This document shows positions 1 to 27,786 of a DNA stretch of 50,153 nt, piece after piece. Both the position numbers and the translations under genes were made by a program. Within the stretch, counting starts at the first letter, position 1, and each line of letters opens with the position of its first letter. The stretch is from a virus, in IMG/VR virus record IMGVR_UViG_3300032242_001101, positions 1-50,153 of that record. One strand, given 5' to 3'. The notes under the pieces were generated by a model. The model did no database searches. It was not told the DNA's origin and saw only the letters and a list, made by a program, of their open reading frames with translations.

Positions 1-1218
1 AAATTAAAATTACTAAGCGAATCAAAAAGTCTGCCTATAGAGTATCATGACATGGTATGGCAACGTAAACAGATTGCAACATTTGAATTAATTAAAAAAT
101 TTACGATTGACCTTAAGTTAGTAGATATATTTTCTAAACTGAAGCAACAGGGTTATCAAATTGCAGTGGCCAGCAACAGCATTAGAGAAACAGTAAAACT
201 CAGCCTGCTCAAAATAGGAGTAATGGAGTATGTTGATTATTTTGTCAGTAATCAAGATGTTACTAATCCTAAACCTTATCCAGAAATGTATTGGAAGTGT
301 ATGACCATGTGTAATACACTACCAAAAAATACATTAATTATAGAAGACAGTCACATAGGCAGACAAGGTGCTCTGGATAGCGGAGCAATATTATTAGCAG
401 TAGAAGATTCGCATGACGTTACATGGGATAAAATTAATAAAAGGTTACAACAAATGAATTCAAGTATGACAACAAACAGTATTCCTTGGAAAGATAGCAG
501 ATTAAATGTCTTGGTACCTATGGCAGGTGCAGGCAGTAGATTTGCTCAACAGGGGTATACATTTCCAAAACCTCTCATTGAAGTTAATGGCAAACCTATG
601 ATACAGGTTGTTGTAGAAAACTTAAACATAGATGCACACTATATTTTTATTGTTCAGCAAGAACATTACGAAAAATACAATTTGAAATATCTGCTTAACC
701 TTATTGCTCCAGGATGTGATATTGTACAAGTAAATGGTATCACAGAAGGTGCCGCTTGCTCTACCCTGTTAGCAAAAGAATACATCAACAATGATGCTCC
801 TTTGGTGATGGCCAATAGTGATCAATATGTAGAATGGAATAGTAATGAATGTATGTACGCATTCACTGCCGACGAAATTGATGGTGGTATATTAACATTT
901 GAAGCCACACATCCTAAGTGGAGTTATGCCCGGGTAGGCGATAATGGTTTTGTAAGTGAAGTTGCTGAAAAAAAAGTTATCAGCAACGAAGCCACTGTTG
1001 GCATTTACTATTGGAAACACGGTAGTGACTATGTCAAATATGCAGAAGATATGATTGCAAAAAACATCCGTGTTAATAACGAGTTCTATGTATGCCCAGT
1101 ATTCAATCAAGCGATCGAAGACGGTAAAAAAATTAAAGTTAAGAAAATTAATCAAATGTGGGGTATTGGAACTCCAGAAGATTTAGACAATTTTTTAAAA
1201 AATTATAAAAAAGATTAA
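1..1218 (+). CDS. HAD phosphatase-nucleotidyltransferase fusion, 5' end outside window
   Basis: The frame is open to the left edge, so this is the C-terminal 405 residues of a longer protein. An ATG at 52 is internal, not a convincing start. The first part is a HAD hydrolase of the beta-phosphoglucomutase type: motif II ASNS, motif III lysine in NPKPYPE and motif IV IIEDS are present, while the DxD nucleophile motif would lie upstream of the window. From about residue 165 a sugar-phosphate nucleotidyltransferase domain begins, with GAGSRF followed by FPKPL. Such a fusion would remove or add a phosphate and then activate a sugar or alcohol phosphate with an NTP. The substrate is unknown. The next two genes suggest a surface-glycan or phosphodiester module. 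The family calls are good; the pathway is inference. Confidence 0.8.
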   Translation, partial: KLKLLSESKSLPIEYHDMVWQRKQIATFELIKKFTIDLKLVDIFSKLKQQGYQIAVASNSIRETVKLSLLKIGVMEYVDYFVSNQDVTNPKPYPEMYWKCMTMCNTLPKNTLIIEDSHIGRQGALDSGAILLAVEDSHDVTWDKINKRLQQMNSSMTTNSIPWKDSRLNVLVPMAGAGSRFAQQGYTFPKPLIEVNGKPMIQVVVENLNIDAHYIFIVQQEHYEKYNLKYLLNLIAPGCDIVQVNGITEGAACSTLLAKEYINNDAPLVMANSDQYVEWNSNECMYAFTADEIDGGILTFEATHPKWSYARVGDNGFVSEVAEKKVISNEATVGIYYWKHGSDYVKYAEDMIAKNIRVNNEFYVCPVFNQAIEDGKKIKVKKINQMWGIGTPEDLDNFLKNYKKD

Positions 1219-14462: not shown

Positions 14463-15620
14463 ATGTTTTTAGAAGACATTATCCACGCATCCGTTCATAT
14501 CTCTGTTGTTCATAACCGAGATCTTGTTATGTTCAACAGTTTTTCCAATCAAATTTGGATGGGTAAGGGTCTAACACAAAAACAATTGGACATGAGCCTA
14601 AAATTGTTGAAAAAATACCACGCACCTTTGTCAGCATACATGAAGGGTGATGTCCTACCTTATCTTGCTAATCCAACTTTGAGGCTGGGAGTGAGAAAAA
14701 TCGAACCACAATCTAAAAAAATCACATTTGTTGACGAGGGCACAAAAAAATTCTCGGTTAGTTTTCCATATGATGAAAATTTGGTGGGAAAATTGAGGTC
14801 TTTTAACAATAGGCAGTTCGGTGACTCGGCAACGTGGGACGGTGAAAACAAAATTTGGGCATTTCCTTTGACCGAACGTGCGGCCATGTTCTTGAAAAAT
14901 GAGGTAGTGCCTCAGGGCTTTGAGGCCTGCAATCGTACAAAAGCAATTTTTGACCAAATTGACGAAATTTTGGTAAATTTTGAGGATTTTGTGCCCCAAC
15001 TGAAATACGAGGATGAATTGTTTTATTTTAAAAATACGCATCCTTCAGTGCCTCAACCAGAAAATATGAATTTTCTGGAAATTTTGTATCATGCAAAAAG
15101 GTATGGGATCACCACTTGGGACCCCGGAATCAATGAGGCCTTAGAAAATGGCAATTTTTCCATTTTTACCAAAAAATTCCTAAATTCTGTGACCCCTGTG
15201 GATTTAGAAATTAACGGGGATGAGCATGGAATTGAAATTTTTGATGATTTGATTTCGACACTAACACCTACACTAATTGTTATCCCTCCTGGGGGAGAAA
15301 TTCAACACCTACGTAAATGGTGGGCTTATCTTTCCACCAAAAATTTCACAAAAAATCAGGTTTCTGTAATGTTTAGGACAGATAACAATTCTGATAGAAT
15401 GTTCAATGAATTGGTTAAAGAACAAGGTTTGAACAGTCCTATTACAGAAGACACAAAATTTGTCTTTGTCAGCCATAAACTTCCAAAACCCATTGTAAAA
15501 AGTGGAATAGAGTTTAAACTTGTGATAAATTTAGGGGCTTTGCCAGGGGTTCACTATTCATTACAAAGTTATCTTGCGGATTTCCCCGACCAAGTCAAAT
15601 ACTATAATAAGAAAAAATGA
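14463..15620 (+). CDS. HARP-domain-like protein paired with UvsW
   Basis: A 385-aa protein with ribosome site AAGGAA. Residues 15-60 (NSFSNQIWMGKGLTQKQ, MSLKLLKKY) and 85-175 (ITFVDEGTKKFSVSFPYDE, WDGENKIWAFPLTE) resemble the region that precedes the motor in HARP/SMARCAL1-type helicases. No Walker A or DExH motif is present. The C-terminal part (TLIVIPPGGEIQHLRKW, KFVFVSHKLPKPIV) looks like a helicase lobe without its ATP site. The stop overlaps uvsW by ATGA. It may be a DNA-annealing or targeting partner for UvsW. Confidence 0.5.
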   Translation: MFLEDIIHASVHISVVHNRDLVMFNSFSNQIWMGKGLTQKQLDMSLKLLKKYHAPLSAYMKGDVLPYLANPTLRLGVRKIEPQSKKITFVDEGTKKFSVSFPYDENLVGKLRSFNNRQFGDSATWDGENKIWAFPLTERAAMFLKNEVVPQGFEACNRTKAIFDQIDEILVNFEDFVPQLKYEDELFYFKNTHPSVPQPENMNFLEILYHAKRYGITTWDPGINEALENGNFSIFTKKFLNSVTPVDLEINGDEHGIEIFDDLISTLTPTLIVIPPGGEIQHLRKWWAYLSTKNFTKNQVSVMFRTDNNSDRMFNELVKEQGLNSPITEDTKFVFVSHKLPKPIVKSGIEFKLVINLGALPGVHYSLQSYLADFPDQVKYYNKKK

Positions 15621-17071
15621 GTGTAAATTGTAAAATCATCATCAAGGACGAAGTCAATGTAAAGATAGAAGGTCTTGACTTAGACACTCGTAAATCATTG
15701 GTCAAAAAATTCAAGTATTTTGACCAAAAAGCTCGGTATCTTCCGGCCTACAAGTTAGGACGCTGGGATGGCTGTACCTCATTTTTCGGTCTCGGCGGTA
15801 CCACATACATGAGTATGCTTCCGCAGGTTATTGAAGAATTAATCAGTCAAGGATATGATCCGTTAGTGGAAGATCTACGCAATCCATTGGCCTTAAATTT
15901 CACCAAAATTTCCGAAGATTTTTGGGGTGATCAAACATGGCCAGAAGGACACAGGTTTGCCGGACAACCTATCAGATTGCGAGATGACCAAGTTGAAGTT
16001 GTCAACAAGTTCCTTGAGAATCCTCAGTGTATTCAAGAAATTGCTACCGGATTTGGCAAGACCATTACCACCGCAACTTTGGCAAAAATCTGTGAAAAAT
16101 ACGGTCGAACAATAACCATTGTTCCTAACAAGAGTTTAGTTGAACAAACAGAAGAAGACTTTCAAAACGTACAATTAGACGTAGGTGTTTACTACGGCGA
16201 CAGAAAAGAGTTAGGCAAAACACACACTATTTGTACTTGGCAAAGTCTCAATATTTTAGAGAAAAAATCCCATGATAGTGAGGATGCTCTAGATCTTGCC
16301 ACATTCTTAGATGGCGTTAACTGTATCATGGTTGACGAAGTTCATATGGCTAAGGCCGATGTTCTAAAGAAACTTTTAACCAACTATATGGCAGGTGCAC
16401 CTATACGTTGGGGCTTAACAGGCACAGTGCCAAAAGAAGACATAGATTTTCAAAATATCAAGGCAGGACTAGGTGAAGTTGTTCACACAGTTAAAGCACA
16501 CGAACTACAGGAAAAAGGTGTGTTGAGCAATTGTCATGTAAACATTTTACAAACTGCCGAATGGAAAGAATTCAAATCTTATCCCGAAGAATTAAAATAT
16601 CTTGTTACAGATGAAACAAGAATGAAGTATCTCAGTGGCCTTATAAAAACCATTGCTGAAGGCGGAAATACGCTTGTACTAGTTGACAGAATAGAATCAG
16701 GCCGTATAATATGTAGTAACATAGAAGATTCTGTGTTTATTTCCGGCGAAGTAAAAACTAAAGATAGAAAAGAGGAATATGATGGAGTGGCAACTGCTGA
16801 TAAGAAGATTATTGTGGCGACTTACGGTGTGGCCGCTGTTGGTATTAATATTCCAAGGATATTTAATATGGTTCTTCTTGAGCCCGGAAAGAGCTTTGTC
16901 CGCGTTATACAATCAATTGGCCGCGGCATTAGAAAAGCCGACGACAAGGACTTTGTACAGATCTGGGATGTCACTGCAACGACGAAGTATGCGAAGAAAC
17001 ATCTTACGGAGCGTAAGAAATATTATAAGGAAGCCAAATATCCGTTCGCGGTGGAAAAGGTAAAATATTAA
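15617..17071 (+). CDS. uvsW: UvsW, superfamily 2 DNA/RNA helicase
   Basis: A 484-aa helicase. The N-terminal 110 residues form the UvsW DNA-binding domain (KARYLPAYKLGRWDGCTSFF). The motor has the Q-region RLRDDQ, Walker A IATGFGKT (142-149), motif II VDEVH (239-243), motif III GLTGT and motif VI QSIGRGIRK. UvsW unwinds R-loops and branched DNA and shifts replication from origin-dependent to recombination-dependent mode. T4 UvsW is 502 aa, so length is normal. It lies directly behind the HARP-like protein and overlaps the following gene by TAATG. Confidence 0.92.
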   Translation: MSVNCKIIIKDEVNVKIEGLDLDTRKSLVKKFKYFDQKARYLPAYKLGRWDGCTSFFGLGGTTYMSMLPQVIEELISQGYDPLVEDLRNPLALNFTKISEDFWGDQTWPEGHRFAGQPIRLRDDQVEVVNKFLENPQCIQEIATGFGKTITTATLAKICEKYGRTITIVPNKSLVEQTEEDFQNVQLDVGVYYGDRKELGKTHTICTWQSLNILEKKSHDSEDALDLATFLDGVNCIMVDEVHMAKADVLKKLLTNYMAGAPIRWGLTGTVPKEDIDFQNIKAGLGEVVHTVKAHELQEKGVLSNCHVNILQTAEWKEFKSYPEELKYLVTDETRMKYLSGLIKTIAEGGNTLVLVDRIESGRIICSNIEDSVFISGEVKTKDRKEEYDGVATADKKIIVATYGVAAVGINIPRIFNMVLLEPGKSFVRVIQSIGRGIRKADDKDFVQIWDVTATTKYAKKHLTERKKYYKEAKYPFAVEKVKY

Positions 17072-17575: not shown

Positions 17576-17896
17576 ATGGGAAATCTTAAACCAGGTGCTA
17601 CCTATGTTTACGAAAGAGACGGCAACACTGTCTACGCCAGAGAATCAGGTGCAGATCCAAGTACAAGATTTGAAGTTGGGTATGAATATGATCCAATAAA
17701 TGGTCATAAGATTGACTACGATAGCAGAACTCCAGATGGTCGTCCATTACACGAGCATCTAAAAGAAGCAGACCTGTGGGGTAAAATACGTAGAGCCGCT
17801 GAAACCAATCCCACTATACGAGATGCCCTGGAACGTGCTAAAATAGCATATTATCTCAGCAAAGAATACGAAGAAAGACATGGCCGCAAAACTTGA
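17576..17896 (+). CDS. Conserved hypothetical phage protein (YVYERDGNTVYAR)
   Basis: A 106-aa protein. The N-terminal half is a beta-hairpin-like repeat (GATYVYERDGNTVYARE) with a charged loop. The C-terminal half is helical (LWGKIRRAAETNPTIRDALERAKIAYYLS). The same layout occurs in uncharacterised T4-like phage proteins. Its start follows the previous stop by 1 nt and its end overlaps the clamp-loader-like gene by 17 nt. Function unknown. Confidence 0.55.
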   Translation: MGNLKPGATYVYERDGNTVYARESGADPSTRFEVGYEYDPINGHKIDYDSRTPDGRPLHEHLKEADLWGKIRRAAETNPTIRDALERAKIAYYLSKEYEERHGRKT

Positions 17897-18347
17897 TATC
17901 AATTCAGAACTAAAAAATATTAACATGAGAAATCATGGCTTCTATGACAGCCTCGAAGATGATGTTAAGAAAGTGTTCAGTCCCTACATCCTGATGCGTT
18001 ATGTATCAAATCCACAAGGTGTTGATCCAGATACATATGAGTTTATCCTTGATCGTGTTAATGACCTTGTGAATAAAGATCATTGGACGCTGAGCAAAGG
18101 ACACAAAGGTATGCTGTGGAAACTGTTTGCCAGTTGCGGAACAGGTATGGATGTTAGATATCAGTATCTTAAATTAGTCAGCAAGTCAACTGCCAATAAC
18201 AAAACAGAAAAATTGCTGTCAGAATTGTATCCTTCAAAGAAAATGGATGATATTAGAGTGTTAGCCAGTCTAATGACTAAAGATGATCTTAACGAGTTAT
18301 TTGACAGTTTAGGGTATGACAAAAAACAACGCAAGGAATATACATGA
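17880..18347 (+). CDS. 62: Probable clamp-loader small subunit, T4 gp62 type
   Basis: A 155-aa protein with the layout of phage clamp-loader A subunits: SPYILMRYVSNPQGVDPDTYEF (similar to the family's L-x-Y/F-P-D segment), a basic LWKLFASCG segment, and a C-terminal LLSELYPSKKMDDIRVLASLMTKDDL that matches the pattern of a K/R-Y followed by a helix before the terminal L-T-D/E. gp62 joins four gp44 ATPases to load the gp45 clamp. gp44 and gp45 are not in this window. T4 gp62 is 187 aa. The match is by pattern, so alternative roles remain open. Confidence 0.5.
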   Translation: MAAKLDINSELKNINMRNHGFYDSLEDDVKKVFSPYILMRYVSNPQGVDPDTYEFILDRVNDLVNKDHWTLSKGHKGMLWKLFASCGTGMDVRYQYLKLVSKSTANNKTEKLLSELYPSKKMDDIRVLASLMTKDDLNELFDSLGYDKKQRKEYT

Positions 18348-18631: not shown

Positions 18632-19323
18632 TCAAATTAGAAGCACAACCTTTTAATTGTGTACATTGCGGCAAGGCCTTTATGAAAGAAAAGACCTTGT
18701 TTGCTCACATGTGCGAACCTAAAAGACGTGCGATGCAGAAAGATGAGAAACGAGTACAAAGCGGTTTCTATGCTTTCAATCAATGGTATAAGATACGTGA
18801 AGGCAGTCAACGACAAAAGACCTATGAGGAATTTTGTAAGAGTGCGTATTACAATGCCTTTGTTAAATTTGGTAGTTTTGTCAACAACGTAACACCTATA
18901 CATCCAGAACGTTTCATTGACTATGTTATCCGCAGTGATGTAAAATTAGATCACTGGTGCCGTGATGAACTGTATGAAAAATACATTGTTGAAATGTTAA
19001 AGACAGAACCGGTTGAGTCGGCAATACAGCGTAGCATCCAACACATGATGGAGTGGGCTGACAATAGTGGTGCCAGTTTTGAACACTATTTCTTGTATGT
19101 AAATCTAAACAGAGCGGTAAATGATTTACGTAATGGTTATATCAGTCCGTGGATTCTTTTATCATGTAAAGGTGGCAAAGAACTGTTGGCTAAGTTTAAT
19201 GATGAACAATTAGAACTTATTAGTGTGGCATTTGATCTATCACATTGGGTAAGAAAATTACGAGATCAACCAGGCGATGCCGCATTGGTTGAAGAAGTTT
19301 GTACAGAAGCAGGAATACAGTAA
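18628..19323 (+). CDS. Zinc-finger-containing phage protein
   Basis: A 231-aa protein. The N-terminus has one finger-like motif, C11-x2-C14-x12-H27-x-C29 (FNCVHCGKAFMKEKTLFAHM), followed by a basic patch (PKRRAMQKDEKR). The rest is alpha-helical with many aromatic residues. The layout is like the zinc-finger proteins of T4-like cyanophage replication regions. Binding to DNA, RNA or polymerase is plausible but unproven. It overlaps the PGDYG-like gene by ATGA and the mini-DnaE gene by one base. Confidence 0.6.
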   Translation: MIKLEAQPFNCVHCGKAFMKEKTLFAHMCEPKRRAMQKDEKRVQSGFYAFNQWYKIREGSQRQKTYEEFCKSAYYNAFVKFGSFVNNVTPIHPERFIDYVIRSDVKLDHWCRDELYEKYIVEMLKTEPVESAIQRSIQHMMEWADNSGASFEHYFLYVNLNRAVNDLRNGYISPWILLSCKGGKELLAKFNDEQLELISVAFDLSHWVRKLRDQPGDAALVEEVCTEAGIQ

Positions 19324-19892
19324 TGCCAGATATTGATATTGATTTCGCTGATAGAAGCAAGGTCCTCAACATAGTTGAACATATCCCTGCGACTATCGAC
19401 GGAATCAAAAAACACAACACAGGAGTTTATTGTACTCCTATTCCATACAATCCTCTAACACACATGGCTTCCATAGATTATAAAGAAGCAGAAGCAAGAG
19501 GTTATTTTAAGATCGATTTTCTTAATGTCAGTATGTACCAAGGCATTAAGAGTGAGGAACATCTAATCGATTTGATGAATAAGGAACCACTATGGGATCT
19601 GCTGGAACAAGACGATTTTTCGAACCTGTTGTTTCATGTAAACGGTCACGGGACTATTTTGAGGACAATGAAGCCAACGAGTATCAGCCAACTTGCCGCG
19701 GTTCTTGCAATGATAAGACCCGCAAAAAGACATTTAATAGGAAAAGACTGGAATATTGTGATGCAAGAAGTTTGGACTAAACCAGATGGTAATGAATACT
19801 TTTTTAAGAAAAGTCACGCAACTGCCTATGCTGTAGCAGTGGTGGTTCAAATGAATTTAATTTGTGAAGGTGTTAGTTACGAGTTTTCTTAA
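19323..19892 (+). CDS. Miniature DnaE-like (C-family polymerase core) protein
   Basis: A 189-aa protein starting at ATG 19323 (AGGAA upstream; TAATG overlap). The in-frame start at 19299 would lie inside the previous gene. Four segments appear in the same order as in bacterial PolIII alpha: PDIDIDF (residues 2-8; DnaE palm D-x-D), YFKIDFL (61-67; third palm Asp), a stretch ending in TMKPTSISQLAAVLAMIRP (115-133; like the LKP-AL-RPGP region), and KKSHATAYAVAVVVQMNLI (162-180; like KSHAAAYA). There is no PHP, beta-clamp-binding or OB domain. A full DnaE is over 1,000 aa. Polymerase activity is doubtful; similar unnamed proteins exist in T4-like cyanophages. Confidence 0.65.
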   Translation: MPDIDIDFADRSKVLNIVEHIPATIDGIKKHNTGVYCTPIPYNPLTHMASIDYKEAEARGYFKIDFLNVSMYQGIKSEEHLIDLMNKEPLWDLLEQDDFSNLLFHVNGHGTILRTMKPTSISQLAAVLAMIRPAKRHLIGKDWNIVMQEVWTKPDGNEYFFKKSHATAYAVAVVVQMNLICEGVSYEFS

Positions 19893-20256
19893 CGCTTCGT
19901 ACCAGTTGAATTGATTTACGTTTAACTCTTTTTTCAGCAATCTCGCTAAGATTAACTATTGGTCCAAATAATACTTCAACATCTTTAGCGTTGAATGTTT
20001 TTATATAGGGTCTAAAAACTATCATTTCTTCTTTGAGAAATATATTAATTGGGATTTTTCTATTGCTTTCCCACCACCAAACATCTCCAAGTTCTAAGAA
20101 TGTCTTGCGCTCTTCTTCAGTACGGATAACACTAAAATCATAGATACTTGCAACATTTTCATCGAGATTTATAACAATGCCGACGTACTCATTGTCTGTG
20201 GTTTTAATACAGGTTATGAATGGGAATTGAGTTTGGAATCCGTCCTTAGGTGTCAT
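19873..20256 (-). CDS. Conserved phage protein, lone minus-strand gene (WWWESNR type)
   Basis: A 127-aa protein transcribed against its neighbours; its end overlaps the 3' end of the mini-DnaE gene by 20 nt. Predicted small beta barrel at the N-terminus (PFITCIKTTDNEYVGIVINLD), a conserved-looking LGDVWWWESNRKIPINIFL core and a basic tail (EKRVKRKSIQLVRSVKK). I recognise this only as an uncharacterised family in T4-like marine phages. Divergent from the structural gene at 20273; the 16-nt gap holds an AT-rich promoter element. Confidence 0.6.
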   Translation of the reverse strand: MTPKDGFQTQFPFITCIKTTDNEYVGIVINLDENVASIYDFSVIRTEEERKTFLELGDVWWWESNRKIPINIFLKEEMIVFRPYIKTFNAKDVEVLFGPIVNLSEIAEKRVKRKSIQLVRSVKKTRN

Positions 20257-21400: not shown

Positions 21401-22402
21401 ATGAATCTCATACAGACAGCAGTTCAGACAGTATTGCCACCTAAACACAAATCTACTCCAAGTGGCTGGATCAGTTTCAATGCTCCCTGCTGTGTTCACA
21501 ATGGAGAAAGTGCGGATACCAAAAGTCGTGCTGGTGTAATTTTCAAAGAAGACGGATTCACTTACCACTGCTTTAATTGCAATTTCAAAGCAGGTTGGAC
21601 TCCTGGAAAACTATTAAGTAAAAACACTAAAAATCTGTTCACATGGTTAGGTATACCAGATAGTGAATTACAAAAACTATCTCTGTACACACTACAGATC
21701 AAAGAAAATCAACCTGTGGCCAAGGTTGAGATAAATTTAACATTAAAAGAAATAGAACTGCCAGAGATGGCAATGAGCCTAGAAGAATGGGCTCGAGAAG
21801 ACTTACCAGATGATGTAAGTCAGCAGTTGATAAAGATATATCAGTACCTACTTGACAGAGGTATGGACATAGATTGGTATAATTGGTCATGGAGTTATAC
21901 GCCTGGCTACAGAGATAGATTGCTAATACCGTTTTATCACGACGGCAAGATAGTAGGCTACACAGGACGTAAGATTACAGACGGCAAACCAAAATATCTT
22001 ACACATTCCCAACCAGGATATGTGTTTAATATTGATCGCCAAACACCAGACAGACAATATGTGATTGTGGTTGAAGGACAGTTTGATGCCATTGCTATAG
22101 ACGGCTGTGCCATCATGCACAACGAACCCAACGAAGCTCAAATTATGAGATTACGATCCTTAGGACGTGAAGTTATTGTAGTACCTGACCGAGACAAACC
22201 AGGTGCTAAGATGATAGAAACCGCAGTTGAACAAGGCTGGTCTGTGAGTATGCCCGAATGGGGAGATGGAGTAAAGGATGTCGCAGATGCTGTGAAAAAA
22301 TTTGGTCGAGTGTATACTTTATTCACAATCTTACACTACAAAGAAACTAACGAAATAAAAAAACAACTACTTAAAAAGAAATTAGAACATGTCGAATTAT
22401 AA
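21401..22402 (+). CDS. 61: DNA primase, T4 gp61 type
   Basis: A 333-aa primase. The N-terminal zinc-binding domain uses C30/C31, H33, C57 and C60 (APCCVHNGES, YHCFNCNFKAGW). The TOPRIM domain has the catalytic Glu in IVVEGQFDA (E225) and the D-x-D in VVPDRDKPG (D263, D265). It makes short RNA primers for the lagging strand and works as a unit with the gp41 helicase, whose gene overlaps this one by 14 nt. Length agrees with T4 gp61 (342 aa). Confidence 0.9.
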   Translation: MNLIQTAVQTVLPPKHKSTPSGWISFNAPCCVHNGESADTKSRAGVIFKEDGFTYHCFNCNFKAGWTPGKLLSKNTKNLFTWLGIPDSELQKLSLYTLQIKENQPVAKVEINLTLKEIELPEMAMSLEEWAREDLPDDVSQQLIKIYQYLLDRGMDIDWYNWSWSYTPGYRDRLLIPFYHDGKIVGYTGRKITDGKPKYLTHSQPGYVFNIDRQTPDRQYVIVVEGQFDAIAIDGCAIMHNEPNEAQIMRLRSLGREVIVVPDRDKPGAKMIETAVEQGWSVSMPEWGDGVKDVADAVKKFGRVYTLFTILHYKETNEIKKQLLKKKLEHVEL

Positions 22403-23816
22403 CGCAGATTTACAGAGACTTTATTTGGAAATGTTTTTGGCAGATGCTGAAACATTTGTGAGGTGCCAAAATATTTTTGATCCTGAGAACTTTGATCGCA
22501 AGTTTCAAGAGCCTGCAAAGTTCATCAATGACTATGTTGATCAGTACAAAGTCATGCCAGAATTAGACATTGTAAATTCTAGTTGTAACACAGATTTTAA
22601 GTCAGCACATGATGTTCCTAAAGAGAACTATAGTTGGCTAATGACTGAGTTTGAGAACTTCAGCAGACACAAAGCCATGGAGCGAGCAATCCTAAAATCT
22701 GCTGATATGCTGGAAAAAGGCGAATATGGTCCGGTAGAAAAACTGATCAAAGATGCGGTGCAAATCAGCCTAAACAAGGACATGGGCACTGATTATTTTG
22801 AAGATCCTCGAGCTCGACTTTTGAAACTAAAAGACAGCAATGGACAGATTAGTACAGGTTGGCCCAGCATTGATAAGAAACTTTATGGTGGATTCAAGCG
22901 TGGTGAACTGGATATTTTCTGTGCAGGATCGGGTGGCGGAAAATCACTATTTTTAGCCAACATTGGCGTGAATTTTGCCATGCAGAACTTGAATGTAATC
23001 TACTTTACATTTGAGTTGGCAGAAGAATTAGTTGGTATGCGTATTGACAGTATGATCACAGGTACTCCTAACAAAGACATCTTCCGAAACTTAGATGATG
23101 TTGAAATGAAGGTTAAGCTCACTGGCAAGAAGGCTGGCGGAATCCAGATAAAATACCTTCCTTCCGGCAAAAATTGCAATGATTTAAGGTCATATTTAAA
23201 AGAATATCAAGTGAAAACAGGCAAAAAAGCCGACATTCTTTTAGTGGACTACTTAGACCTTATGATGCCTCTATCTGTAAAGGTAAGTCCAAGCGATCTT
23301 TTTGTCAAGGACAAATATGTATCAGAAGAACTTCGCAATTTAGCCATGGAAACTGGCTGTATTGTGGTAACTGCTTCACAACTTAACAGAAGTGCTGTTG
23401 AAGAAATTGAGTTCGATCATTCACACATTTCAGGTGGTTTGAGTAAGATTCAAACTGCTGATAATGTGATTGGTATCTTTACATCACGTGCAATGCGTGA
23501 GCGTGGACGCTATCAAATTCAGTTCATGAAAACACGTTCATCCAGCGGTGTAGGTCAAAAAGTTGACTTAGAATTTGATGTAGATACTCTGCGTATCAAA
23601 GACCTCGAAGAGGATGAAGGTAGTTATAGTACCCAGGCCAGTAAGCCCAGTGCCAGCATATTAGATGGCTTGAAAAAGACTTCTACTGTTGTAGATCAAA
23701 GTACTGGAGAAATTAAGAATCCCAACGAAGGTATCAGCATTGGCAAGGTAAAAGCCAATACTAATTCTGCTCAAATTAGGGATATTATTAAGAGTTTGAA
23801 TTCTGAGAAAGATTAG
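22389..23816 (+). CDS. 41: Replicative DNA helicase, T4 gp41 (DnaB family)
   Basis: A 475-aa hexameric helicase. The N-terminal 130 residues form the helical collar. STGWPSIDKKLYGGFKRGEL leads into Walker A AGSGGGKS (179-186), FTFELAEELVGMR is the H1a-like region, ILLVDYLDLM (283-292) is Walker B, and VTASQLNRS is motif H3. It moves 5' to 3' on the lagging strand and activates gp61. Length equals T4 gp41 (475 aa). The C-terminal 60 residues are charged and probably flexible. Confidence 0.93.
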   Translation: MSNYNADLQRLYLEMFLADAETFVRCQNIFDPENFDRKFQEPAKFINDYVDQYKVMPELDIVNSSCNTDFKSAHDVPKENYSWLMTEFENFSRHKAMERAILKSADMLEKGEYGPVEKLIKDAVQISLNKDMGTDYFEDPRARLLKLKDSNGQISTGWPSIDKKLYGGFKRGELDIFCAGSGGGKSLFLANIGVNFAMQNLNVIYFTFELAEELVGMRIDSMITGTPNKDIFRNLDDVEMKVKLTGKKAGGIQIKYLPSGKNCNDLRSYLKEYQVKTGKKADILLVDYLDLMMPLSVKVSPSDLFVKDKYVSEELRNLAMETGCIVVTASQLNRSAVEEIEFDHSHISGGLSKIQTADNVIGIFTSRAMRERGRYQIQFMKTRSSSGVGQKVDLEFDVDTLRIKDLEEDEGSYSTQASKPSASILDGLKKTSTVVDQSTGEIKNPNEGISIGKVKANTNSAQIRDIIKSLNSEKD

Positions 23817-24373
23817 AACCAGTCAGCAATTTTATTGCTGGCTACAAGTTCAATTGCTTTTTCCCACTGCTCGTCATTGTTGTTATTGAATACAGAGTCT
23901 ATAGTAGCGGGTGCATCTAACCACCGATGTTCTAACTTCCAGGGAGGCAGTCCTTTGTATTCGCCTTCTAATTGACCTGCGGCCCATGCACTTACTCCTA
24001 CACAGGCTCTGTAGAGTTTAGGACCTACTCCTCCTGCAATTGCAGTCATAACACTGAGTTCACTCGTAATACCAATCTCAGATGTAACCATTACAGTAGA
24101 AGCAACATGCCAGTCTAAACTGTGTACAACATGAACTCTGTTATGATCAACTGGTCCGCCTACATATATTGGCTCAGGATTTGGGTAACTTATTCCTGTT
24201 GACGACATTACAGCATCAAGTGTAACTTTTGGTGTTGATTTATTCACCATAACGCCCCAAGCACCATCTGACCCGTGCTTGGCTATCAATACAACACTTT
24301 TACTAAAAATAGAATCGAGACCTTTAGGTTGTGCTACTAAGATATGACCCGTTAAATTAAAAGAACCTTTCAT
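23813..24373 (-). CDS. AlgH / UPF0301 family protein
   Basis: A 186-aa protein, taking the start at 24373 (MKGSFNLTGHILVAQP); a longer frame begins at 24400 but would run through the promoter element. Signatures are VLIAKHGSDGAWGVMVNK, IYVGGPVD, and AGQLEGE near the C-terminus, as in bacterial AlgH/YqgE. The cellular family has no settled function (linked to alginate regulation in Pseudomonas). Phage copies occur in T4-like marine phages. It converges on the helicase gene with a 4-nt overlap. Confidence 0.85.
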   Translation of the reverse strand: MKGSFNLTGHILVAQPKGLDSIFSKSVVLIAKHGSDGAWGVMVNKSTPKVTLDAVMSSTGISYPNPEPIYVGGPVDHNRVHVVHSLDWHVASTVMVTSEIGITSELSVMTAIAGGVGPKLYRACVGVSAWAAGQLEGEYKGLPPWKLEHRWLDAPATIDSVFNNNNDEQWEKAIELVASNKIADWF

Positions 24374-24378
24374 TGCGA

Positions 24379-24396
24379 TATTTAACTGAATAAATA
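24379..24396. promoter_or_regulatory. Back-to-back late promoter elements
   Basis: TTAAATA (minus strand, 24385-24379) lies 5 nt before the AlgH-like ATG at 24373, and ATAAATA (plus strand, 24390-24396) lies 6 nt before the ATG at 24403. The two genes diverge from a 29-nt gap with no ribosome-binding site on either side. Confidence 0.6.
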
Positions 24397-24402
24397 CCAA
24401 TT

Positions 24403-25089
24403 ATGAACATATTTGAATTTGTCGCGCCTATAGAAACTCACCAAGAACTTAATCCTAAACTTTGGTTAGGTGAGCACTTACGTCCTGATGTTCATGATGC
24501 CTTACTTAAGATTTCCGCAGAATTTTTTGAGTTTCTTAACATGCCTGTAGAAGTTGAAGACATCATTGTGTCTGGTAGTCAAGCCAATTACAACTACAGT
24601 CCTTACTCAGATCTCGATGTTCATTTTGTTGTAGACTACGGGAAAGTTAAATGTGAAATGGAAGCAGATGAACTGTTTGATACCAAGCGTAAACTTTGGA
24701 AGGCTCAGCACAATATCAAAGTTCACGGAATTCCTGTAGAGTTATATGTTGAAGATAAAATGCAACCTGCGGTCAGCAGTGTGTATTCATTACTATCAAG
24801 ACAGTGGGTTAAGAAGCCAGATCCAAAAGCAGTTTTATGGGATAAATCTCAGGTAGTTGACAATGCTAAAAAATGGACAGAGTTTATAGACTCTGCTGTT
24901 ATGAGCGGTAATTTGGAAATCTGCCGCAGAGTAAAAGAGATGTTGAGCAATTACAGAAAAGAAGGTTTGGCTAAGGGCGGCGAGTTCAGTGTTCCAAATC
25001 TTACATTTAAGAGTCTGCGCAACGCAGGCAAAGTTCAGGAATTAATGGACAAGATTGGCGAATTATTTGACCGTCAACTAAGCATTTAA
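24403..25089 (+). CDS. Pol-beta-superfamily nucleotidyltransferase-like protein
   Basis: A 228-aa protein. The N-terminal half has the nucleotidyltransferase signature: GSQANYNYSPYSDLDVHFVV (G-S followed by D-x-D, residues 58-77), with a third acidic residue in IPVELYVED. The C-terminal half is helical. The fold covers aminoglycoside-type NTases, antitoxin-like MNTs and tRNA-type enzymes, so the acceptor cannot be deduced. It is driven by a late element; the N-terminus MNIFEFVAP resembles those of late phage proteins. A role in virion or host-takeover modification is possible. Confidence 0.7.
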   Translation: MNIFEFVAPIETHQELNPKLWLGEHLRPDVHDALLKISAEFFEFLNMPVEVEDIIVSGSQANYNYSPYSDLDVHFVVDYGKVKCEMEADELFDTKRKLWKAQHNIKVHGIPVELYVEDKMQPAVSSVYSLLSRQWVKKPDPKAVLWDKSQVVDNAKKWTEFIDSAVMSGNLEICRRVKEMLSNYRKEGLAKGGEFSVPNLTFKSLRNAGKVQELMDKIGELFDRQLSI

Positions 25090-26189: not shown

Positions 26190-26728
26190 TATTAATAACG
26201 GGTAAGAGTGATTTAGCAACCGCCATTGCTAATAAACTGACAGACTGTATAATTGTAGGTCGTCCAGAATATGATTTTTCAAAAAAAGAAGACTGCGATA
26301 AATTATTAAGAGATTTTCCAAAACCCGATGTGGTAATAAACACGTTTGGAGTTATCACAGATGATTGTTGGACCAGTATTACCGTTAATTATTTGTCTCC
26401 GTTGTATATTACTAGTCAATATTATAATTTACTAAATAAAGGTCATATCATTAATATAAGTAGTGCTAGTAGTTGGTGGCCTACCTATCCCGGAATTGAA
26501 GATGAAAGATTATACTATGGTATTGCCAAACGTAGTCTAAGTGAATTTGGTCAGCAATTTAATCGTGCTAAAGTTGACGACTTAACAGATGTTTGTGTAA
26601 CTACTATAGAACCTGGAAAATTTATTTCAAAAATGAGTAAGAATCAAGGGATAGATATAGATAAAGTTGTTAGCACTATCGAATATGTAATACTGACTCG
26701 AGCACATCATGTATCACTAATAAAATGA
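26186..26728 (+). CDS. Short-chain dehydrogenase/reductase (SDR)
   Basis: A 180-aa short SDR. The start ILITGKSDLATAIA is the nucleotide-binding glycine region (a reduced TGxxxGIG), DVVINTFGVI is the NNAG-type strand, INISSASS supplies the catalytic Ser, and YYGIAKRS is the YxxxK pair. Classical SDRs are about 250 aa, so this lacks much of the C-terminal substrate region. Both ends overlap neighbours by ATGA. It probably oxidises or reduces a sugar or nucleotide-linked compound made with the adjacent enzymes. Confidence 0.75.
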   Translation: MILITGKSDLATAIANKLTDCIIVGRPEYDFSKKEDCDKLLRDFPKPDVVINTFGVITDDCWTSITVNYLSPLYITSQYYNLLNKGHIINISSASSWWPTYPGIEDERLYYGIAKRSLSEFGQQFNRAKVDDLTDVCVTTIEPGKFISKMSKNQGIDIDKVVSTIEYVILTRAHHVSLIK

Positions 26729-27786
26729 ATTACTCATACTCAAGCATCAAAAGTGTTGAAATAGAAATTAGCACATATTGTAATGCGGCATGCCCCCAAT
26801 GTCCGAGAAACAACTACGGTGGCAAAACAATCAATAGCCTTCCTCTTATTAATTGGTCATTAGAGCAACTACAGTCTGTGATTGAAGAACCGTTTATTAA
26901 ACAACTTGATCTAATATATTTTTGTGGGACATATGGCGATCCATTAATGAATAATCAATTAACAGACATGTGTAGTTGGTTGAAGCAGGTAAATCCTAAT
27001 TTAAAAATAGGCATACACACTAATGGCGGTGCTGGTAAAAAAGAAACTTTTATAGAACTGGCAAAAACAACAGATTTTATTGCCTTTGGACTTGACGGAT
27101 TAGAAGATACCAATCATCTATATCGACGTAACACCAAATGGGATATTATTATGTCTAATGCCAACGCATTTATCAATGCAGGCGGATATGCCATATGGGA
27201 TTTTATTGTATTTCAACACAACCAACACCAAGTTGAAGATGCTAGAAAATTAAGTAATCAATTAAACTTCAAAGAATTTAATGTTAAAAAAACTAGTAGA
27301 TTCTTTAATAAAAATCACGAACTAGTAGATTATATAGATGTGTTAGATAATAATGGTAATAAAGAATACAAGTTATATCCGCCTACTAATGAATACCTAA
27401 ATACTGCCTACGAACTTGTAAGGCAAACTGATCTAAACGACTATATAAAAAATACCAAAATTACCTGTTATTTTGCTAAACATAATCAATTGTATATTGG
27501 GGCTGACGGAAATGTAGTACCGTGCGGGTTACTACATGACAGACTATATGGATTAGAAGCAGAACAAAATTCTGACCATACAAAAATTTTACAAATGATG
27601 AACGATGTTGGCGGCAAAAAATATACAAATGTATTTCATACAAGTTTGGAATCAATTGTCGACGGGCCTTGGTTTGATCGACTCAAACATTCGTGGACGC
27701 ACGATCGATTAGAAAGATGTGCAATATATTGCGGAGAATCTATAAGGCTTCTAAAAGATCAAAATACCGATATTACATACAAGTAA
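26725..27786 (+). CDS. Radical SAM/SPASM-type protein
   Basis: A 353-aa protein. The radical SAM cluster motif is CNAACPQC (CX3CX2C, residues 18-25), preceded by EIEISTYC. The barrel continues with IYFCGTYGDPLMN and IGIHTNGG. The C-terminal part has further Cys residues (ITCYFAKHNQLYIGADGNVVPCG, then RCAIYCGES), as in SPASM/twitch domains binding auxiliary iron-sulfur clusters. Such enzymes modify peptides, sugars or alcohols. It is the last gene of the operon with the nucleotidase and SDR. The substrate is unknown. Confidence 0.82.
   Translation: MNYSYSSIKSVEIEISTYCNAACPQCPRNNYGGKTINSLPLINWSLEQLQSVIEEPFIKQLDLIYFCGTYGDPLMNNQLTDMCSWLKQVNPNLKIGIHTNGGAGKKETFIELAKTTDFIAFGLDGLEDTNHLYRRNTKWDIIMSNANAFINAGGYAIWDFIVFQHNQHQVEDARKLSNQLNFKEFNVKKTSRFFNKNHELVDYIDVLDNNGNKEYKLYPPTNEYLNTAYELVRQTDLNDYIKNTKITCYFAKHNQLYIGADGNVVPCGLLHDRLYGLEAEQNSDHTKILQMMNDVGGKKYTNVFHTSLESIVDGPWFDRLKHSWTHDRLERCAIYCGESIRLLKDQNTDITYK

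Follow-up and report, generated by a model that had tools for sequence, protein, structure and literature searches.

The 189-aa protein encoded on the plus strand at positions 19323-19892 of the window (the whole analysed stretch, 50,153 nucleotides of IMG/VR record IMGVR_UViG_3300032242_001101) is firmly homologous to the alpha subunit of DNA polymerase III (DnaE), and it probably forms, in a T4-related jumbo phage, the C-terminal part of a minimal C-family (Pol III alpha) polymerase encoded by two genes, an enzyme that most likely carries out short synthesis beside a family B replicase. The finding is already known in kind, both from the protein family phrog_11778 and from the work of Iyer et al. 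(2021), where group 2.2 jumbo phages, including Atu_ph07, were described as having a family B polymerase together with a split minimal Pol III alpha, composed of an N-terminal protein that binds NTP and a C-terminal one that binds Mg2+ and template, the two genes lying far apart (PMC7824862). Reconstitution of the enzyme from both proteins was called likely by these authors, as a prediction, and the split pair was considered a possible model of the ancestral, pre-fusion polymerase III (PMC7824862). The function of the pair was published as a prediction in 2021, and no report of an experimental test of it was found. What is added here is the exact cut point, a residue map, co-occurrence counts, the gene neighbourhood and three tightly linked genes.

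The program translation of the gene reads MPDIDIDF...KIDFL...MKPTSISQLAAVLAMIRP...KKSHATAYA. Its ATG at 19323 overlaps the preceding gene by one base, and the N-termini of homologs lie at DIDID or a few residues ahead of it, so that this start is plausible. The protein matches phrog_11778, annotated as 'DNA polymerase', with an E-value of 3e-65, phrog_405 (full-length phage DnaE) with 2e-9 and TIGR00594 with 2.4e-5; the Pfam finger domain is reached only at E 0.11, and at E 0.01 or better by 14 of 77 homologs. Matches in cellular genomes were genuine actinobacterial DnaE proteins, with 30-35% identity over residues 52-134 (tblastn), and host-genome copies were rejected, the genome scan having given genuine bacterial DnaE and one contig that resembles a phage and had been binned in an archaeal MAG. 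Sixty-three phage records were matched by tblastn, nearly all of them jumbo phages of the RaK2/PBECO4/GAP32/PA5oct/Atu_ph07 kind and every one below 60% identity, and at least 591 stretches of IMG/VR match as well. The members from named phages are 33-53% identical to the protein, which, judging by about 50% identity and the same neighbourhood, is the ortholog of the Atu_ph07 protein. The dN/dS of the gene, about 0.04-0.12 in three computable pairs (dS being saturated in one), points to purifying selection.

That the core motifs of DnaE stand in their DnaE order, as the original prediction held, is borne out by the translation and by profile-profile comparison. Against a DnaE core profile, whose numbering begins at E. 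coli 270, the 77 homologs gave three collinear hhalign segments in DnaE order, pairing residues 1-12 with E. coli DnaE 396-410 (4.5e-6), 50-135 with 540-642 (2.7e-8) and 157-173 with 752-768 (0.0023), these E-values being those of single comparisons. The score of 64.3 compares with 15.8 +/- 2.7 for column-shuffled controls (maximum 23.6, n=60) and with 20.4 for the reversed control, so DnaE profiles do match and the no-match outcome, which the prediction had named as speaking against it, did not occur. Among the motifs as originally worded, PDIDIDF, KIDFL and KSHATAYA are present; where 'LKP' was given the actual letters are MKP, and the stretch given as 'AL-x-RP' reads LAMIRP. The three palm aspartates are covered as proposed, D3, D5 and D65 aligning with D401, D403 and D555 of E. 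coli.

In a conservation alignment of 77 diverse homologs, with identity down to 36%, twelve columns are invariant (D3, D5, D7, H31, K63, D65, W91, P118, I131, R132, P133 and H165), and K163 and Y169 are conserved in at least 90%. D401, D403 and D555 are named active-site residues of DnaE, and H760 is its proposed steric gate, called invariant across all Pol III alpha proteins (PMC8485763). The retention of H165, the counterpart of H760, argues for a site which may still handle dNTPs. The earlier suggestion of a catalytically altered protein does not agree with this picture, the three aspartates and the equivalents of K553, R639 and H760 being invariant.

The AlphaFold2 model of the C unit, built from the 77-row alignment (pLDDT 92.9, pTM 0.82), was superposed by VIA-align with residues 1-187 on Taq DnaE 461-841 (Z 9.5, rmsd 3.8 over 185 residues), with residues 1-187 on PolC 971-1299 (Z 9.3) and with residues 1-186 on E. 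coli DnaE 401-781 (Z 9.1). The top 16 matches were all DnaE/PolC (Z 6.1-9.5, 171-187 residues, rmsd 3.3-4.4), the best unrelated chain reaching Z 3.6. The Foldseek TM-scores against DnaE/PolC were low (0.35-0.46) because of the large deletions, and VIA-align is therefore the result to use. The structure prediction and superposition that had been proposed as a check thus give a predicted fold matching DnaE/PolC over the whole length, and the second outcome named as speaking against the prediction, a fold with the three Asp residues apart, received no support. With a collinear match in both sequence and fold, and with the catalytic residues retained, the protein belongs to the C-family superfamily, and its description as a pared-down relative stands.

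On E. coli DnaE the protein covers roughly residues 400 to 781, a region shortened as had been noticed, to 189 aa versus about 370 in E. coli over the same motifs. According to the hhalign segments, about 92 residues are lost in the thumb region (E. coli 411-539) and about 88 in the mid fingers (643-751, including R709-K715), and there is no counterpart at all to what follows E. coli 781 or so. The palm-fingers match spans the 189 aa end to end and leaves no room for further Pol III alpha domains, and the C-unit ORFs of homologs measure at most 232 aa from stop to stop. Being short and carrying the second half of the palm and the fingers, with the catalytic DxD and the third Asp, the protein is a C unit of phrog_11778. 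Compared with bacterial DnaE (E. coli; Taq, 3e0d; mycobacterial, 5lew), the palm/fingers fold, the catalytic aspartates, K553, R639, K758 and H760 are shared, whereas PHP, thumb, mid-fingers R709-K715, HhH, clamp motif, OB and tau-binding domain are missing. Relative to PolC (G. kaustophilus, 3f2c) the fold is aligned along residues 1-187 and the same domains are missing; PolC additionally carries an integral exonuclease domain (PMC3919608). Canonical DnaE/PolC membership was accordingly rejected, as PHP, the first half of the palm, thumb, mid fingers and C-terminal parts are absent. Group 3.2 jumbo phages (phage G, c-st) likewise have a C-family polymerase (PMC7824862), but theirs is a full-length, PHP-containing Pol III alpha which defines the replication of the group, whereas the relatives of the C unit have a family B polymerase.

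In DnaE, which is one chain, the GRGS motif stands upstream of PDxDxD, and the 189-aa protein is without it; in the split system the first half of the palm is another gene. Such a separate gene was found by whole-genome search in 10/10 named phages, with PF07733 above cut-off and covered from about position 16 to 125, and PF07733 was matched by all 64 aligned members of this N unit, which is phrog_11127. The C unit alone is not a self-contained enzyme. The N unit has apparently been noted before, as a 'truncated' Pol III alpha of 172 aa (CBB_328; PMC5259590) and as Pol III alpha gp316 (PMC6102473). GRGS is present in 101/101 N units, whose C-terminal end lies 33-39 residues beyond it, at ...EFLN/K, the E. 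coli counterpart being GRGSGAGS...FERFLNPERVSMPDFDVDF. An AF2 model of the N unit (pLDDT 91.2) was aligned by VIA-align to DnaE/PolC with Z 7.6-12.3, the next unrelated match having Z 2.6; residues from about 78-85 to 179 correspond to E. coli 279-395, or to 306-415 of 5lew (Z 12.3). The N unit thus ends at about E. coli 395 and the C unit begins at about 400, so that 279-395 and 401-781 together make up the palm and fingers core, apart from a gap of about five residues. The first 77 residues or so of the N unit (L380:5770-6306 and homologs) gave no match in the structure search. The adjacent upstream gene was rejected as the site of the missing palm half, its 231-aa CCHC protein (phrog_11058) having no GRGS, and N-C fusion proteins were absent from the retrieved N and C loci. 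The proposal of a stand-alone fold reused for another purpose does not fit an N-terminal palm half kept as a separate gene in related genomes; in fact, to regard the protein as an accessory or a reused fold overlooks both the partner gene and the earlier published report of the pair. Other phage 'DNA polymerase' families outside the window, phrog_13169, phrog_11165 and phrog_12219, also match the N or C unit; the 463 aa of phrog_13169 end shortly beyond the GRGS region, and this family, too, might be a Pol III alpha that is split.

The N unit occurs in 11/18 long C-unit contigs and in all six of those of at least 350 kb, and the C unit in 6/8 long N-unit contigs; long contigs with one unit only exist, among them a 359-kb N-unit contig without C, and may be fragments. 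Over 22 pairs the N and C distances are correlated (r 0.72, Mantel p 0.0005), as is expected from vertical descent (co-inheritance) alone. A T4-type family B polymerase was found in 10/10 named phages and 11/18 long contigs, in keeping with the earlier remark on the T4-like setting. Neither the N unit nor a family B polymerase was found in the window, a 50-kb fragment, and for this particular phage both are presumed from its relatives; a 270-kb relative (L024, G001), whose C unit is 73% identical, carries the two of them. The system agrees with that of Iyer et al. (2021) in family, palm division, family B background and phage group (Atu_ph07, Rak2-like), the identity of the C unit resting on description and phage group, as no accession for the pair was found in their text. 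In contrast to the distant genes reported there, and usual elsewhere, the XacN1-like contigs L289-L291 have the N and C genes within about 5 kb.

The location in a replication operon, as originally claimed, was confirmed, and more precisely it is a replication/recombination operon with uvsW, gp61 and gp41 (Table 1). In a survey of 230 C-unit loci, some contigs being counted twice, the order was fixed as uvsW, phrog_11279, phrog_11758, phrog_11058, C unit and, on the opposite strand, phrog_11637, followed by a structural-type gene, gp61 primase and gp41 helicase. A gp44-type clamp loader or AAA ATPase is encoded a few genes away from the N unit, and the placements of both units would suit a role in replication or recombination. 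The products of phrog_11058, which has a putative zinc site (C11-C14-H27-C29, with invariant CCHC), phrog_11758 and phrog_11637 are candidate accessory subunits, their genes adjoining the C unit in 98-99% of relatives.

Table 1. Coordinates in the window of the C-unit gene, its motifs and its conserved neighbours
Feature	Position	Strand	Basis
C unit (binding metal and template) of the split minimal Pol III alpha, 189 aa	19323..19892	+	phrog_11778, hhalign, AF2, VIA-align
PDIDIDF palm strand: D3 = D401, D5 = D403, D7 = D405 (E. coli)	19326..19346	+	hhalign on PDFDVDF at 400
H31, invariant, probably matching E. coli H511 in KHAGG (510; aligned by eye)	19413..19415	+	
KIDFL palm strand: K63 = K553, third catalytic aspartate D65 = D555	19509..19523	+	hhalign 2.7e-8 segment
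KPTSISQLAAVLAMIRP at the base of the fingers; R132 = R639 (E. coli)	19671..19721	+	hhalign; P118, I131, R132, P133 invariant
KKSHATAY, O-helix motif: K163 = K758, H165 = steric-gate H760, Y169 = Y764	19806..19829	+	
phrog_11058 protein, 231 aa	18628..19323	+	one-base overlap with C unit; upstream in 211/215 loci with room
phrog_11758 protein	17880..18347	+	2.3e-21; 200/204 loci
phrog_11637 protein, convergent with C unit	19873..20256	-	5.4e-35; 188/189 loci, always minus strand
DNA primase (T4 gp61 type)	21401..22402	+	phrog_47 7e-41; 154/163 loci
DnaB-like replicative helicase (T4 gp41 type)	22389..23816	+	phrog_19 5e-73; 133/146 loci
UvsW-type recombination helicase	15617..17071	+	phrog_16 2e-74; 146/170 loci

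In the mechanism proposed, the three metal-binding aspartates and the K553 equivalent would come from the C unit, which makes up the palm's second half and also provides the base of the fingers and the O-helix with the equivalents of R639, K758 and the steric gate H760; the other gene, usually distant, would contribute the palm's first half and, within it, the NTP-binding motif GRGSS. We infer that both proteins meet at the palm junction (E. coli 395/400) in a heterodimer, whose restored nucleotidyl transferase site, of the Pol-beta-like kind, would add dNTPs by two-metal catalysis. Such an enzyme should be poorly processive alone, because it is without thumb, PHP, HhH, OB and clamp-binding parts. 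Its most likely task would be short synthesis (gap filling, recombination or repair, lagging-strand) beside the family B replicase, and it is perhaps held by products of the UvsW-gp61-gp41 operon. A bolder version sees in the pair a functional C-family polymerase that has two subunits and no thumb and is smaller than any other of its kind; it would share the replisome or recombination complex of the family B replicase and obtain the missing DNA-holding parts from phrog_11058, phrog_11758 and phrog_11637. This version is put forward tentatively and is itself doubtful.

Templated synthesis is not assured, since the thumb, much of the fingers and the DNA-holding C-terminal domains are absent. The pair could in principle have given up templated polymerisation and be a split nucleotidyl transferase, acting by untemplated addition or modifying DNA ends, RNA or protein during recombination-dependent replication. 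The loss of thumb, middle fingers, HhH and OB, with the metal site, GRGSS and the sugar-contacting His kept, is consistent with such an activity, as is the family B polymerase of the same phages; nevertheless, the conserved steric gate H760 and fingers base suggest selection of dNTPs opposite DNA, and the linked genes could provide other DNA-binding surfaces, which makes this explanation rather unlikely. Host replication uses DnaE, and a small protein with an incomplete palm might be pictured as a non-catalytic regulator or decoy, a mimic of DnaE whose target would be a replication factor of host or phage. That is very improbable, given that the C unit has lost the PHP, tau- and clamp-binding parts which host partners bind, that the invariant catalytic Asp, Lys and steric gate are not needed for a decoy and that a matching N half is retained with GRGSS intact. 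Finally, decay by frameshift or degradation of a phage or host dnaE that was formerly complete would account for the large internal deletions and is practically untenable, already contradicted by an intact and conserved ORF, hundreds of homologs, low dN/dS, an invariant active site, a fixed gene order and a cut point that all N units share.

If the two-gene polymerase is active, the replicative polymerase family of bacteria would have in it a catalytic core of very small size, and two unrelated polymerase families would be at work in one phage. Moreover, the cut point and the residue map make the model of an ancestral, pre-fusion Pol III directly testable with two small proteins.

Some further genes of the window deserve mention. 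A 385-aa protein (14463-15620, +) has no PHROG or Pfam match, and at that position RaK2-like phages carry a gene for a DNA polymerase exonuclease subunit. Directly after the gp41 helicase, on the opposite strand, lies an AlgH-like (DUF179) protein (23813-24382, -), and near the helicase a stand-alone Pol-beta-type nucleotidyltransferase (24403-25089, +; PF01909, 2e-5). A fusion of a HAD-like phosphatase and a sugar-nucleotide-type nucleotidyl transferase is encoded at 52-1218 (+), and a radical SAM protein with a SPASM domain at 26725-27786 (+; PF04055, 6e-11; PF13186, 6.6e-5), adjoining NT5C-like and short-chain dehydrogenase-like genes.
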